A DNA stretch of 35,329 bases from Oscillospiraceae bacterium (GTDB lineage Bacteria; Bacillota; Clostridia; Oscillospirales; Oscillospiraceae), in contig JAGBQR010000013.1 in the NCBI GenBank assembly GCA_017632775.1, positions 1 to 35,329 of the forward strand. Reading direction: 5' to 3'. A program made the translations under genes and the position numbers. The notes under the pieces were generated by a model. It did no database searches and was not told the origin of the DNA. It was given only the letters and a program-made list of their open reading frames with translations. This document shows positions 3,873 to 15,661 of this stretch, in pieces. Numbering within the stretch: the stretch's first letter is position 1; the number at the start of each line of letters is the position of its first letter.

Positions 3873-5156
3873 TCAGCTGCGGAAGAAGAATGTGTTGGAT
3901 ACACTCGTATCATAGGCTGTCACATTGGACGTCCAGTAGATCCCGTTCTCCGCTGCGGAATAAACGAGTTTTCCCGTGCCGTTGGTATAAACCGTGACCG
4001 ATTCCAATGTGTTTTCGTCTTTATATGTATAGTCCACCCGAACGGCGTTCTGGTAGTTCATCACCCCGTTCGCATCAAAGGAACCCTTGAAGGTCCACTC
4101 GGTATATTCCCATGCGCTGCTCGGCCAGCGTGCCTTGACCGAGTATTCTCCGGCCCCGCTGATCGTGATGGTGGCACGCTTTGCGATATTCTCAACGTAC
4201 TCGCCCGTATATCCCGTAGAGGGAACAGGCGCTGCTCCGGCAACCGAGATGGTGGCAACCGCCGTATCCGAGTATCCATAGGTATTGGAATAACGGCAGT
4301 AGACTTTCCAGCCGTTCATGGACGCCGGGATATTGCTCACGGTCATCGTGCTGTACATCCCGTCGGTCACTTTGACTGTCGGATAATTCTTGGCAAACGT
4401 GTCATACGGAAGGTCGATCGAGGAATCCGGGCTGACAAAATGCCATACTGCGAACGTGGCATTCACGTAATCCGCTTTGAATATGGCAGATCCGCCTTCA
4501 TTCACCGTCACAGATACAGGATTCAGCGTGATTTCAGGAAGATTGGAAGTCGACCCTCCGGACGCGCGGACCACCGTGATCGTAGCTTTTGTCGTATCGG
4601 AATAGCCGTTGTTGTTGGAATAGCGGCAATAGACCTTCCAGCCGTTCAGATTGTATGAAACATTGCTCAGCTTCATGGTGCTGTACATTCCGTCGACGAT
4701 CTGCACCGAAGGAAAAACCTTTATGGCTTTCTCATACGTCATGTCCGTGTTCCCGTCCGGACTGACAAAGTGCCAGACTGCCCATATCGCGTTCACATAG
4801 TCCGCTTCAAAATAGCAGGCCTGGCCTTCGGCTACCGTGACAGATCCCGGATTTTTCGTGACCAGAGGCACATCCGCCTTCGGGGTCGGAGTCGGAGTCG
4901 GCGTCGGGGCGGGGGTCGGCGTCGGCGTCGGGGAAGGCGTCACGATCACTACGGTCTGTTCCGGCGTCGGAGTGGGCGTTACGATCACGACCGCCGGGTT
5001 CTCCTCTTCAGGGGCCGAAGAAGGCTCCACAGGCACGACCACCGGACTGACCGTCTCTTCCTGCTTCCCGGCGGGTGTCCCGTTCATTCCGCATCCTGCC
5101 AGAATCAGGAGTGCCAGCACGAAAAAACCTGTTCTGATCCATGCTTTGCAATTCAT
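3873..5156 (-). CDS. Lipoprotein with Pro/Thr linker and two Ig-like repeats
   Basis: The 427-residue protein starts with a type II signal peptide (hydrophobic FFVLALLILAGC) with the lipid-anchored Cys22 in an LAGC lipobox. Residues 30-95 form a low-complexity linker rich in TPTPTP, the sort that spans the cell wall. Two repeats of about 100 residues follow (about 97-197 and 206-307), each with NPxSVTVxEG, ADYVNAxxAVWHFVSPD, DGMYSTM and NGWKVYCRYSNxxGYSDT; these look like bacterial Ig-like beta-sandwich domains. A third, different C-terminal domain (about 317-427, GEYVENIAKRATITISG onward) is also beta-rich. No catalytic motif is visible; a binding or structural surface role is the most that can be said. 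An AAGGAGAG lies upstream of the ATG and the gene is followed by a strong terminator, so it is monocistronic. Confidence 0.85.
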   Translation of the reverse strand: MNCKAWIRTGFFVLALLILAGCGMNGTPAGKQEETVSPVVVPVEPSSAPEEENPAVVIVTPTPTPEQTVVIVTPSPTPTPTPAPTPTPTPTPKADVPLVTKNPGSVTVAEGQACYFEADYVNAIWAVWHFVSPDGNTDMTYEKAIKVFPSVQIVDGMYSTMKLSNVSYNLNGWKVYCRYSNNNGYSDTTKATITVVRASGGSTSNLPEITLNPVSVTVNEGGSAIFKADYVNATFAVWHFVSPDSSIDLPYDTFAKNYPTVKVTDGMYSTMTVSNIPASMNGWKVYCRYSNTYGYSDTAVATISVAGAAPVPSTGYTGEYVENIAKRATITISGAGEYSVKARWPSSAWEYTEWTFKGSFDANGVMNYQNAVRVDYTYKDENTLESVTVYTNGTGKLVYSAAENGIYWTSNVTAYDTSVSNTFFFRS

Positions 5157-12423: not shown

Positions 12424-12792
12424 ATGAACGAAAAAGACATCTATTATCATGATCACGGTGACGGGATCCTTCACAGCCATCACGCGGAGGAGCACACCCA
12501 TGACGGTGCTTCGGAGCATACCCACGGGCATGTCCATTCACATACACAGACAAAAGCGGTCCTTAACCGCCTTGCCCGCGCGATCGGCCATCTTGAGCAT
12601 GTGAGAAGGATGGTCGAAGACGGGCAGGACTGCACGGATGTTCTCATTCAGCTTGCCGCCGTTCGATCCGCGCTCAGCAGCACGGCAAAGATCATTCTGA
12701 AAGATCATATCGAACACTGTGTCACCGGAGCAAACGGCGGGGACGCTGACAGTCTTGCCGCGCTCAACGATGCGATCAACAAATTTATCTGA
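12424..12792 (+). CDS. CsoR/RcnR-family metal-sensing repressor with His-rich N-terminal tail
   Basis: The 122-residue protein has two parts. Residues 1-43 hold 12 histidines in HxH patterns (HDHGDG, HSHHAEEHTHDG, HTHGHVHSHT) and are probably disordered and metal-binding. Residues 44-122 are the helical DUF156 domain of the CsoR/RcnR/FrmR repressors. The Cu(I) ligand triad of CsoR is conserved in identity and spacing: Cys70, His95 and Cys99 (25 and 4 residues apart, as in Cys36/His61/Cys65 of the M. tuberculosis protein), which favours copper over nickel or formaldehyde sensing. CsoR-type proteins release DNA when loaded with metal and so induce exporters, yet no metal exporter is adjacent. 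The ribosome binding site (GGGTGA) is weak. A strong bidirectional terminator lies downstream. Confidence 0.88.
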   Translation: MNEKDIYYHDHGDGILHSHHAEEHTHDGASEHTHGHVHSHTQTKAVLNRLARAIGHLEHVRRMVEDGQDCTDVLIQLAAVRSALSSTAKIILKDHIEHCVTGANGGDADSLAALNDAINKFI

Positions 12793-12871
12793 TCGCGCCG
12801 CCCGGTTTTTTCAGAAAAGCCTTTGCCCCGTCCTCCCCCTTCAGAAGCCCTTGAAAAAGAAACATACAGAT

Positions 12872-12907
12872 AAAAACGGACCGTCATCTGACCGGTCCGT
12901 TTTTTTC
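12872..12907. terminator. Bidirectional terminator between csoR-like gene and radical SAM gene
   Basis: 12-bp stem AAAAACGGACCG / CGGTCCGTTTTT (12872-12883 and 12893-12904), with T-runs on both strands. The right half is also the last codons of the minus-strand radical SAM gene, so the terminator is built into its coding end. Confidence 0.9.
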
Positions 12908-13519
12908 CCGTATCACGTACTCGAACAGCTCCAGATTCGTCACCCCCATTTTTCTCAGCTTGTCCGCACTTCGCCCCTGATCTTCCTCCGTATTGTACTC
13001 CGGTATCCGGGGCACGCGCACAAAAAGGCGCTCCGGGCCGGCTGTCCGCAGAAGAAGCCTGAGATTGCTCTCCATCAGGGAGAACTCCCCTCCCGTATAG
13101 CGCCGGTAAGTCTCTTCATTCATGTCCTTGCAGTCAACGATGAACAAGTCGACCGCGCAGAGGACCGTCAGCAGCTGTTCTTCCGGAACGGCAAGACTCG
13201 TTTCCGCGCTTACCTTCCACTCCGCAGGAATGAGCTCACGGAATCGCCGGATGAACTCCGCGTGCAGAAGCGATTCTCCTCCTCCAAAAGTGATCCCGCC
13301 TCCGGTTGCCCGGAAATACAGATCATCGACCTTCACACGTTCCAGCAGTTCCTCCGGAGTGATCCTTTCAGGCTGCGGGTCACGCAGCAGCCGTCCGTTG
13401 ATGCACCACCGGCAGTGCAGCGGGCACCCGGCTCCGGCCACCAGCGTGGTCACCCCGTTTCCATCGGTTCCCATGCGAAGCCGCGAAAGGCTCAGAAGCG
13501 GGTAGCGGACATCATCCAT
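12884..13519 (-). CDS. Small radical SAM protein, glycyl-radical-activase-like
   Basis: The 211-residue protein has the radical SAM CxxxCxxC signature in GCPLHCRWC (Cys32, Cys36, Cys39), which binds the 4Fe-4S cluster that cleaves S-adenosylmethionine. The GGE motif appears as TFGGGESLLH (79-86; Ser replaces the usual Pro) and DCKDMNEETYRRYTG (129-143) matches the DIKHMDxxKHxxYTG segment of pyruvate formate-lyase activase. There is no ferredoxin-like insert and no SPASM domain, so it is close to PflA/NrdG-type activases, but no glycyl radical enzyme is in the window. Start 13519 is chosen because its ATG overlaps the stop of the upstream cysteine-rich gene by 8 bases (translational coupling) and GGGAG lies upstream. 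The target is unknown; the coupled cysteine-rich protein is the obvious candidate partner. Confidence 0.85.
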   Translation of the reverse strand: MDDVRYPLLSLSRLRMGTDGNGVTTLVAGAGCPLHCRWCINGRLLRDPQPERITPEELLERVKVDDLYFRATGGGITFGGGESLLHAEFIRRFRELIPAEWKVSAETSLAVPEEQLLTVLCAVDLFIVDCKDMNEETYRRYTGGEFSLMESNLRLLLRTAGPERLFVRVPRIPEYNTEEDQGRSADKLRKMGVTNLELFEYVIREKNGPVR

Positions 13520-13988
13520 CGTTTTCTTCTCCCGGGGCATACGCCACATACCCCGTCAGATCGAACTCCGGCACATATTCCGGAGCGACGGGCCCTGTCT
13601 TATTCTCTGCCTCCTCTTCTTCTGGCCAGGCAACTTCACCGGTCGTTACAAAGATCTCCTCTTCCTCCGGCTGACGCTCTTCGACTGCGACATCACCGGA
13701 CAGCTCGGTCTCTCCGCCCGCGGGCCCCTTCTGGCCTGGAAACGGAGAACATCCGGCTGTGCTGAGCGTTATCCCGGCACAGAGTGCTGCCAGTGACACC
13801 CGCTTCCCCAGCGATTTTCGCAAAGAAAGCTGCTGTTCCAGATAGCGCAATTCACTTTCGCAGCGCGGACAGGTCCCCTTGCATTCCCCTTGAAAACCGC
13901 ATTCGCGGGTAACGTAGGGAATATCGTTTTCGTCCGCGATCCGCCGGCGGATCTCTTTCAGGATCCTGCATTTCTTCTTGCCAGGCAT
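13512..13988 (-). CDS. Cysteine-rich protein with internal lipobox-like membrane segment
   Basis: The 158-residue protein is not one I can name. Its first 60 residues are basic and helical with a cysteine cluster Cys30-x5-Cys36-x3-Cys40-x2-Cys43 (ECGFQGECKGTCPRC), suited to binding zinc or an Fe-S cluster. Residues 60-80 look like a lipoprotein signal peptide placed internally: KSLGKR, a hydrophobic VSLAALCAGITL, then STAGC with Cys80. The remaining half is very acidic (EERQPEEEEI, WPEEEEAEN) and ends in a short DLTGYVAYAPG motif. Predicted topology is N-terminus inside, acidic tail outside. It is translationally coupled to the radical SAM gene. AGGGGG precedes the ATG. I recall similar GECKGTCPxCE proteins beside radical SAM genes in anaerobes, but this was not checked. 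Confidence 0.72.
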   Translation of the reverse strand: MPGKKKCRILKEIRRRIADENDIPYVTRECGFQGECKGTCPRCESELRYLEQQLSLRKSLGKRVSLAALCAGITLSTAGCSPFPGQKGPAGGETELSGDVAVEERQPEEEEIFVTTGEVAWPEEEEAENKTGPVAPEYVPEFDLTGYVAYAPGEENDG

Positions 13989-14115: not shown

Positions 14116-15242
14116 CTACAGCACCGGCGCTGTCCATTCTCCTTCGCCGCTGCTTCCTCCGCCGCCGGACCAGACGATCTGTTTTTCACTGATATCTCCT
14201 GCCGCCATGTATCCCTGCCGGCCGTTTGCTTCCACATAGTAACCGCCGTCCGTCTGCAGCAGTACCGTGATCTTCGTGTTCAGTTTCAATTCCTCGCCCG
14301 TTCCCGCAAGACGATAGTTTTCAAAAAGCTTTGCCTTGCTCTTTGCAAACCCCTGCCATTCCCGGAAAGCCTCATCTCCTTCCAGATAAAGCGCCCATCT
14401 CGGCAGAGTGCCCTTTTCTTCTCCGGTCCAGATCGTGCAGATCTTTTCCTCCTTTTCCGTCACCATCACGGACTCTCCCGCAGTGACAAGCTGCAGATAC
14501 AGTTCTGCCCCGTCCGCAAGGATCCGTCCCCGTTCCGGAAGCCCTTCGGCGGCTTCCTCCTCCATATACGCCGGAAACAGCCCTTCCACCGGCTGCAGAA
14601 AACTCCGGATCCCCAGAAAGATATCTCCGCCGTCGGCTCCTCCGCCGCTTCCGCCCCCTCCGCCGCCGGACCAGGTGATCCTGACCGGGCTGAAACGGGA
14701 CGCATCGGCATAACCCTGCGCAGCATCCGTTTTCACCAGAATGATATCGCCCAATTCTTCGATTATCGTGACCGGAGTGTTGAGTTTCAGGGTTGCCAGC
14801 GGTTCTCCCGTCAGATAGGGAGATGCGAAAAATTCTGCTCCGGTTCGCGCATAGGCCGTTTTCTCTTCCTGAGGTTCTTCTCCGTCATCCCTGACAAACC
14901 GTTTTTCAATGAACAGCGTTTTTTCATCCAGTCCGATCCGGTAATAGTTCCCCTCTTCGCCGAAGATATCTGCGATCTCTCCCCTTTCGGCTGTACGATA
15001 CAGGACTCCGATGTCATAAGCCGCCACGATCCCTTCTTCCCAGGAAGGGGTCGGCACCGGAGTGGGCGCCGGTTCCGGCGTCGGGGCAGGCGCGGATACG
15101 GCCGCGGTTTCGACAGCAGGCGTCTCCACCGGTTCCGAAGGCTCTTCCCCCGGCGATACAACGGTCCTCCTGCTGAGGGAAACGAACGCAAGAAGGGCGG
15201 CAAGAACAGCGATCGCAATGATCGAAAAGACTTTCTTTTCAT
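14116..15242 (-). CDS. SH3-like membrane/surface protein with WSGGGG tails (start codon out of frame)
   Basis: The frame from about 15243 to the stop at 14116 encodes a membrane anchor (VFSIIAIAVLAALLAFVSLS), a Pro/Glu linker (TPEPAPTPVPTPS) and two bacterial SH3-like regions: TAYARTGAEFFASPYLTGEPLATLKLNTPVTII... and SKAKLFENYRLAGTGEELKLNTKITVLL.... Each ends in a WSGGGG motif, the second forming the C-terminus (SGEGEWTAPVL). SH3-like domains of this type bind cell wall or ligands. Oddity: the only ATG with a ribosome binding site (AAAGGA, ATG 15240-15242) reads into another frame; a -1 shift in the A-run after codon 2 would give MKKKVFSIIAIAV, an ideal start. The in-frame ATG at 15384 would overlap the previous gene by 107 bases and lacks a proper site. 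Either a 1-base deletion, an assembly error or a non-ATG start. Confidence 0.75.
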
Positions 15243-15277
15243 CCGTCGATCCTTTCTGCTTCTTATCCGGGCGGATC

Positions 15278-15661
15278 TTATTCCAGGTCCAGTTTATCGA
15301 AAAGTGCCGTTGCAAGACGGACACTTTTTCGCGGATCTCCGCGATAATCCAGCGATACGTCCTTTGCATCGCTCCTCGCCACATTCAAGCGATAGGCCGC
15401 ATTATGCACTTCCCACTCCGCGGCAAGGTTTTCGTAACTCCGGTCCGTAAGTCCGGTCCGGGAAATGATCTCGCAGACCAGATGACGGTCCTCCTGCGAG
15501 TTTACCAGATAGGAATCGATGATCTCCGCATCGAATTCCCTGAATTCCACAGAGCAGTTCTCCCCGTAGCGGAAGAGGATCTCATCGATCCGCTCCTTCG
15601 CCTCCGAAAGGCTGAGTTTCTCCGGAAGACTCCGAAAGACCTGAGGGGGCTCTCTTTTCAT
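15278..15661 (-). CDS. Hypothetical protein, 127 residues, in the surface-protein cluster
   Basis: I do not recognise a named family. The protein is soluble, mostly helical, with a mixed-charge composition and no signal peptide or membrane segment. Notable stretches are LPEKLSLSEAKERIDEILFRYGENCSVEF, EFDAEIIDSYLV and RTGLTDRSYENLAAEWEVHN, which look like a compact conserved domain. A GGAGAG lies 7 bases before the ATG. It begins 15 bases after the stop of the large esterase-like gene and ends 35 bases before the apparent ATG of the SH3-like gene, so the three are probably one transcript. The cytoplasmic prediction and position between two exported proteins suggest a chaperone- or regulator-type helper, but this is inference. 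Confidence 0.72.
   Translation of the reverse strand: MKREPPQVFRSLPEKLSLSEAKERIDEILFRYGENCSVEFREFDAEIIDSYLVNSQEDRHLVCEIISRTGLTDRSYENLAAEWEVHNAAYRLNVARSDAKDVSLDYRGDPRKSVRLATALFDKLDLE

Follow-up and report, generated by a model that had tools for sequence, protein, structure and literature searches.

Two overlapping genes of an Oscillospiraceae bacterium encode a PflA-like radical SAM (rSAM) enzyme and a small protein carrying a five-cysteine module, and we are nearly certain that the enzyme and the module are dedicated partners. The partnership, the module, the exchange of its cargo, the enrichment of a motif in its tails, and the catalytic residues retained by the rSAM are computed results, and glycines of the tail motif are a candidate modification target to which we give about an even chance. 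The window, i.e., the whole stretch of DNA analyzed, comprises 35,329 nucleotides (contig JAGBQR010000013.1), and the pair has the following features in its numbering.

13512..13988, minus strand: 158-residue module protein, with five-cysteine module, membrane segment/lipobox, and acidic tail
13812..13988, minus strand: five-cysteine module, residues 1 to 59 (C7, C30, C36, C40, C43)
13749..13808, minus strand: hydrophobic segment with lipobox STAGC, residues 61 to 80, predicted from sequence
13689..13703, minus strand: tail motif 1, LSGDV (Gly98), which fits the strict pattern given below
13632..13646, minus strand: tail motif 2, TTGEV (Gly117), which fits the strict pattern
13587..13601, minus strand: tail motif 3, variant KTGPV (Gly132), which misses the strict pattern
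13545..13559, minus strand: tail motif 4, variant LTGYV (Gly146), earlier read as DLTGY, which misses the strict pattern
12884..13519, minus strand: 211-residue PflA-like rSAM protein
13403..13426, minus strand: rSAM CX3CX2C, residues 32 to 39 (C32, C36, C39)
13512..13519, minus strand: 8-nt gene overlap, ATGGATGA, translational coupling
12870..12905: hairpin with T-runs on both strands, past the rSAM stop, common to the pair and a convergent plus strand gene

The sequence-only reading had described this pair correctly: the Cx5Cx3Cx2C at residues 30 to 43, the membrane segment, the STAGC with C80, the acidic tail, and the overlap of the stop with the rSAM ATG (8 nt) were all recovered. It left unstated that both genes lie on the minus strand, and its cysteine cluster, although correctly placed at 30 to 43, overlooked the invariant C7. 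The 158-residue protein, for which no Pfam or NCBIfam family was found at an E value of ≤1, has cysteines at positions 7, 30, 36, 40, 43, 70, and 80. Its STAGC (residues 76 to 80), a putative lipobox, closes a basic and a hydrophobic stretch, and the hydrophobic stretch is preceded by a cytosolic-type region of about 60 residues instead of a short n-region. The tail past C80 consists of 78 residues, 21 of which are D or E versus 3 K or R. The rSAM ATG at 13519 is located inside the 158-residue open reading frame (ORF), and an alternative start at 13549 would yield 221 residues; the 211-residue form is preferred because the rSAMs of most relatives begin near its start position. Purine-rich AGAAGGGGGAAGAGACA lies ahead of the ATG of the 158-residue ORF and GGGAGAAG ahead of that of the rSAM gene.

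The hairpin past the rSAM stop gave folds of −21.0 and −20.4 kcal/mol (z values of −4.65 and −6.87), with 0 of 200 shuffles as good. It was not listed in a simple terminator scan and, judged by fold and T-runs, is likely a bidirectional terminator. A further hairpin sits between the next upstream gene and the pair, which is thus flanked on both sides and therefore probably represents a two-gene unit. The product of the convergent neighbor (12424 to 12792, plus strand) is rich in His near its N terminus and matches the metal-sensitive-repressor family (PF02583, 89.7 bits). The upstream gene (14116 to 15384, minus strand) codes for a protein with an SH3_3 domain and several glycine-rich linkers, and a strong hairpin lies at its end.

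Co-occurrence was examined in samples of 197 genomes (the window's order), 247 genomes (the order Bacteroidales), and 151 genomes (another order), 595 in total. The rSAM subfamily and the module were found together in 19 of the 595; the remaining cases were one module with an rSAM fragment only and one rSAM fragment without a module. Among the genomes carrying the rSAM, 9 of 9, 6 of 6, and 4 of 5, respectively, also carried the module. In the 197-genome sample, the module search listed 11 genomes, 9 of which were true on inspection (the window included), and the rSAM gene was directly downstream in all nine. In the converse search, with an alignment of 52 rSAMs as the query (E ≤ 1e-40), nine rSAM matches were obtained, located in exactly the same nine genomes. 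Of 64 matches in the 247-genome sample at an E value of ≤1e-25, six stood apart at 2e-74 or better, the next being at 1e-37; their genomes were the module genomes, except for G730 (locus L083), where the rSAM is reduced to a fragment (region 312 to 690, a short frame beside an intact Bacteroidales-type module protein). The 151-genome sample gave four matches at 4e-70 or better, all four in the four module genomes, and a fragment in genome G600 (3e-50) that lies among transposase-like ORFs, with no module match in that genome. One of the 19 genomes (G166, locus L006) has an in-frame TAG inside the cysteine motif of its module gene and an intact rSAM gene downstream, reflecting either recent decay or an assembly error.

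Adjacency was then assessed by scanning a genome collection with the module alone. The best 80 of 560 confirmed relatives were fetched, from records of Lachnospiraceae, Oscillospiraceae, and other Clostridia, plus one labeled Bacteroidales; these are not all independent, since they collapse to about 74 distinct proteins at about 90% similarity. An rSAM gene adjoined the module in 76 of the 80 (74 just downstream and 2 just upstream), counting the L083 fragment, an rSAM that runs into Ns (L024), and one cut by a contig end (L058). Two of the other four loci stop at a contig end, and two (L027 and L032) have no rSAM in the locus. Among the 51 loci spanning 9 kb or more, and apart from shadow ORFs, no third gene family recurred in more than 5; the most frequent families besides the pair occurred in 9 and 5 loci, and the 9-locus family and one 5-locus family were ORFs antisense to the pair. 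These data bear out the earlier proposal that the coupled genes encode partners, and homologues of the small protein keep the cysteines and, in 76 of these 80, the rSAM neighbor. In the window's family the module was present in 7 of 160 genomes, with none in two genus-mates; the rSAM is adjacent in the other six module genomes or, in locus L205, fused to the module. In the order of the isolate Lachnospiraceae bacterium AB2028 (locus L034), 2 of 246 genomes had the module. With such low counts across samples, its distribution is sporadic. Several weak module matches were rejected, either because they covered the signal region only (L010 and L011) or because they were other cysteine proteins (L096 to L100, L102, and L103). 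Another module search, which listed 12 genomes, contained two true ones (G000 and G466) by our own reading of its weak matches other than L101, L104, and L105.

Two alignments, one of 30 and one of 24 modules, showed no variation at the five cysteines C7, C30, C36, C40, and C43, and in the latter alignment G3 and G38 were invariant as well; by eye, the fused modules of L126 and L127 showed a slightly different cysteine spacing. None of the 24 modules matched a Pfam family at an E value of 0.001 (best, 0.0048), and the search of the PDB gave no significant match for the module (best E value, 0.5). Together with the NCBIfam search of the window protein, these results argue strongly that the module represents an undescribed domain. 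A literature search did not find the pair described, which is weak evidence, as subscription papers mostly lay outside its coverage.

The module is attached to very different cargo. In Clostridia, the carriers are predicted lipoproteins: the lipobox cysteine is present in 92 of 93 Clostridial-form proteins, lies at +36 from the cysteine cluster in 85 of the 92, and always follows G, A, or S in these 92 relatives. Cys80 is thus conserved in the Clostridial form. The FtsZ-like, solo, and fused forms lack this cysteine, as do 3 of 7 Bacteroidales module proteins that were inspected. Carriers in Bacteroidales include TonB_C proteins (L139, twice, L140, and L142) and CarbopepD_reg_2 proteins (L141, L196, and L198), and a Segatella copri plasmid has two module genes annotated “energy transducer TonB” followed by one annotated “radical SAM protein.” In three Tubulin/FtsZ-domain proteins (L115, L116, and L117), the module forms the C terminus; L118, an FtsZ-like carrier of similar size, had no Pfam hit. 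At the L118/L137 locus, the neighbor of the FtsZ-like protein matches VWA_CoxE marginally (26.3 bits; cutoff, 26.4). The module also occurs solo, as a 95-residue frame without a tail (L125), and in one chain with the rSAM in L126, L127, and L205, the first two from two Bacteroidales genomes with the same neighbors and the last from the window's family.

The module gene precedes the rSAM gene in Clostridia and at the FtsZ-like loci; the order is reversed in several Bacteroidales loci. A single rSAM may be accompanied by two tandem module proteins (L046, L054, L139, L196, and L036, one of whose copies is odd) or by three (L071 and L198), and L141 encodes two module proteins with no rSAM within 12 kb, the rSAM of that genome being on another contig. 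On an IMG/VR contig (L195:3721-4317 and 4289-5147), the gene for a NADAR-domain protein (PF08719) is followed by that for an rSAM and then by a module cut by the contig end. The predicted lipoproteins of L030, L031, L034, L035, L039, L041, L045, and L131 have an extra C-terminal domain of about 150 residues past the motif tail; the one tested, that of L030, had no Pfam hit.

The window rSAM belongs to the radical SAM superfamily by both score (Radical_SAM PF04055, 49.7 bits; cutoff, 29.5) and its CX3CX2C, and its best PDB match is Escherichia coli PflA (3c8f; E value, 2.5e-13). Radical_SAM and Fer4_12 were the only domains above the cutoff; no SPASM/Twitch or PqqD-like recognition domain, as in rSAM-RiPP enzymes, was. 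Its best NCBIfam family, TIGR02494, scored 122.5 bits, below the cutoff of 174.35, and NrdG (TIGR02491) scored 20 bits against a cutoff of 126.1; four clade rSAMs scored about 117 to 123 bits on TIGR02494, again below 174.35. A tree was built from 38 module-linked rSAMs and 16 outside ones, without the L205 fusion; a single branch with 100/100 support set all 38 apart from the others. The CX3CX2C cysteines were invariant in 94 module-linked rSAMs, and the clade has retained the catalytic residues C32, C36, C39, D19, GGGE, D129, K131, and R168. Thirteen positions, including R15, T24, L26, G79, E106, L109, and Y138, separate the 94 clade sequences from 15 outside sequences. The rSAMs of L115 to L118 start with MxG[DE]I (MKGDI, MLGEI, MLGEI, and MTGDI), matching the tail motif at the enzyme N terminus, and the G600 rSAM fragment also has MLGEI.

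The genes around the outside relatives are of another kind. Pfam identified a PFL-like/Gly_radical protein adjacent to the rSAM in 10 of 10 loci examined; a Gly-loop regular expression had missed these glycyl radical enzymes (GREs). When 125 module loci were searched with a profile of the outside-locus GREs, no GRE was found; these loci, some of them overlapping or short, amount to 1,075 kb. Homologues of the window rSAM are thus not mostly neighbors of a GRE as far as this clade is concerned. Since both the family cutoff and the GRE neighbor were tested and neither was found to apply, we do not class the window enzyme as a GRE activase; it is an rSAM enzyme with a dedicated protein partner. 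The L205 rSAM (L206:9208-10149, minus strand), which carries the module at its C terminus, is intermediate: it scored 178.2 bits on TIGR02494, above the cutoff like an ordinary GRE activase, and 179.5 bits with the clade profile, a value that falls between those of clade members and those of outside rSAMs. These scores suggest that the module system may have descended from a GRE activase.

To define the tails, we took 93 proteins, set aside the second copy of L036 (which lacks the lipobox cysteine), and removed identical and near-identical sequences, leaving 81 Clostridial tails. The best-surrounded residue was Gly, with L at −2 (5.2-fold), D/E at +1, V/I at +2, A at +3, and Y at +4. The strict pattern [LIVMTA]xG[DE][VIMLA] occurred 179 times versus 17.6 expected (maximum of 34 in 1,000 shuffles), about a 10-fold excess that is flattered by the choice of the pattern after the same tails had been seen. 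At least one copy was present in 79 of the 81 tails; the exceptions were the first copy of L071, whose locus has two short-tailed copies without an LxG[DE]V motif, and L074. With the pattern fixed beforehand, seven Bacteroidales tails contained 6 matches versus 1.0 expected, and 0 of 2,000 shuffles reached 6. Four of these seven tails had the strict pattern, and all seven had a looser one chosen afterwards. Over 49 tail pairs, identity was 83% at motif glycines (n = 155), 61% at other glycines (n = 503), and 50% at the remaining positions (n = 5,233). In the window tail, two of the four motif glycines miss the strict pattern, and DLTGY, far from being invariant at the C terminus, turned out to be one variant of this repeated LxG[DE]V motif. 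By eye, LTGYV resembles the PFL loop RVSGY, and CX5CX3C of the module resembles part of a SPASM motif. The LGEVV of Bacteroidales CarbopepD_reg cargo may derive from ordinary receptor sequences. Of the FtsZ-like carriers, L118 alone has a clear motif and L115 a near-match; neither the solo module (L125) nor any of the fusions (L126, L127, and L205) has LxG[DE]V in the same chain.

GRE activases abstract a hydrogen atom from Gly in the glycine loop of their partner. We propose, with the case for and against about equally balanced, a two-gene protein modification system in which the module docks the rSAM and motif glycines undergo hydrogen abstraction before export. The module would be cytosolic, with C7 in a first helix and C30/C36/C40/C43 between this helix and a second one, and the positive segment ahead of the hydrophobic stretch would hold it in the cytosol with the tail outside. 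Probably as a Zn or Fe-S site, it would dock the dedicated PflA-like rSAM, whose 5′-deoxyadenosyl radical would take the α-hydrogen from Gly of LxG[DE]V-type motifs in the same chain. Modification would come before the tail leaves the cell by way of the membrane segment and before lipidation at the lipobox cysteine, a step specific to the Clostridial form. Candidate products are a glycyl radical, hydroxylation/cleavage, or a crosslink. The occurrence of several tandem module proteins per enzyme fits a substrate role for these proteins. In its broadest version, the portable five-cysteine tag would mark unrelated proteins for glycine radicalization by a dedicated PflA-like enzyme outside GREs, and at tandem glycyl sites of surface proteins oxygen could trigger cleavage and so release the tail; we regard this version as speculative and unlikely.

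Other readings assign the two proteins different roles. An ordinary lipoprotein with a chance rSAM neighbor has practically no probability left, contradicted as it is by co-occurrence, adjacency, and fusion, and nothing speaks for it beyond the lack of any described function. It also seems very unlikely that the rSAM activates a GRE encoded elsewhere, with the module protein as a chaperone or membrane anchor. Membership in the PflA-like family and the L205 score above the GRE-activase cutoff favor such an activase, whereas no Gly_radical domain (PF01228) was found in the 65% complete genome of the window, no GRE was detected in the 125 module loci or within 19 kb of L205, and the outside relatives examined adjoin their GREs.

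The module may instead be the Fe-S/Zn subunit of the enzyme, provided in trans as its dedicated electron donor or as an auxiliary cluster, with the substrate elsewhere and the tails serving as tethers or regulators. The five invariant cysteines, the tailless solo module, and the three rSAM-module fusions agree with this role, the fusions fitting either docking or an accessory cluster. As only its CX3CX2C cysteines are invariant, the rSAM has no second cluster of its own. The absence of the motif from solo and fused forms, the main weakness of the glycine-target model, keeps the accessory role alive. Such a subunit would nevertheless leave unexplained the tandem module proteins, the L141 locus without a nearby rSAM, and the tail motif, and on balance we consider it rather unlikely. 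A still less probable alternative is that the enzyme modifies the module itself, for example at the conserved Gly that opens the G[KR]xxC ending in C7 or at inter-cysteine glycines, and that the cargo inherits a modified module. The module is the only part common to every carrier, and it contains the invariant G3 and G38; this invariance is, however, equally expected of a docking or metal-binding fold, and the tail motif would again have no explanation. The cysteine cluster as the target, another suggestion of the sequence-only reading, is not favored.

The glycine-target model has partial counterparts among known systems. Like the GRE activases (PflA, the TIGR02494 group, and HypD-type enzymes), the module-linked rSAMs show the radical SAM fold by sequence, CX3CX2C, GGE, D19-G-x-G, and K131; unlike them, they form a separate clade, score below the cutoff, and have module proteins instead of a GRE as neighbors. 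The nearest parallel to the module is the class III ribonucleotide reductase NrdD/NrdG, where a zinc finger of four cysteines lies close to the activated glycine loop (PMC9669993). The window pair differs in that it has no NrdD or GRE barrel, the module has five cysteines at other spacing, and tail motifs replace a single C-terminal loop. rSAM RiPP systems (mycofactocin and sactipeptides) share a small gene with a constant N-terminal and a variable C-terminal part, a dedicated adjacent rSAM, and several substrates per enzyme; compared with RiPP precursors, the module proteins likewise combine a conserved module with a variable, motif-rich tail, modification of such a core being putative. In contrast to RiPP systems, the module system has no SPASM/recognition domain match and no recurring peptidase or transporter, and its products would be membrane-anchored or exported proteins with folded domains. 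The FtsZl1-vWA membrane-remodeling operons (Makarova and Koonin 2010, PMC2875224) also include an FtsZ-like protein, which in L118/L137 adjoins the marginal VWA_CoxE match; the term “radical SAM” does not occur in that text, and the FtsZ-like protein here ends in the five-cysteine module.

Taken together, the module and its rSAM point to a chemical modification of proteins that has not been described before and would concern surface proteins for the most part. If the glycine-target model is true, PflA-type hydrogen abstraction from glycine would be used outside GREs; its substrates in gut and rumen bacteria would be exported or cytoskeleton-like, and it would be mediated by an undescribed module movable between proteins. 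An rSAM subfamily that now falls below the curated GRE-activase cutoff would gain a name and a testable target, as would proteins annotated as hypothetical or as energy transducer TonB, such as those on the Segatella copri plasmid. With the module also fused to an FtsZ-like GTPase, one may ask whether a cytoskeletal-type protein is subject to radical modification.
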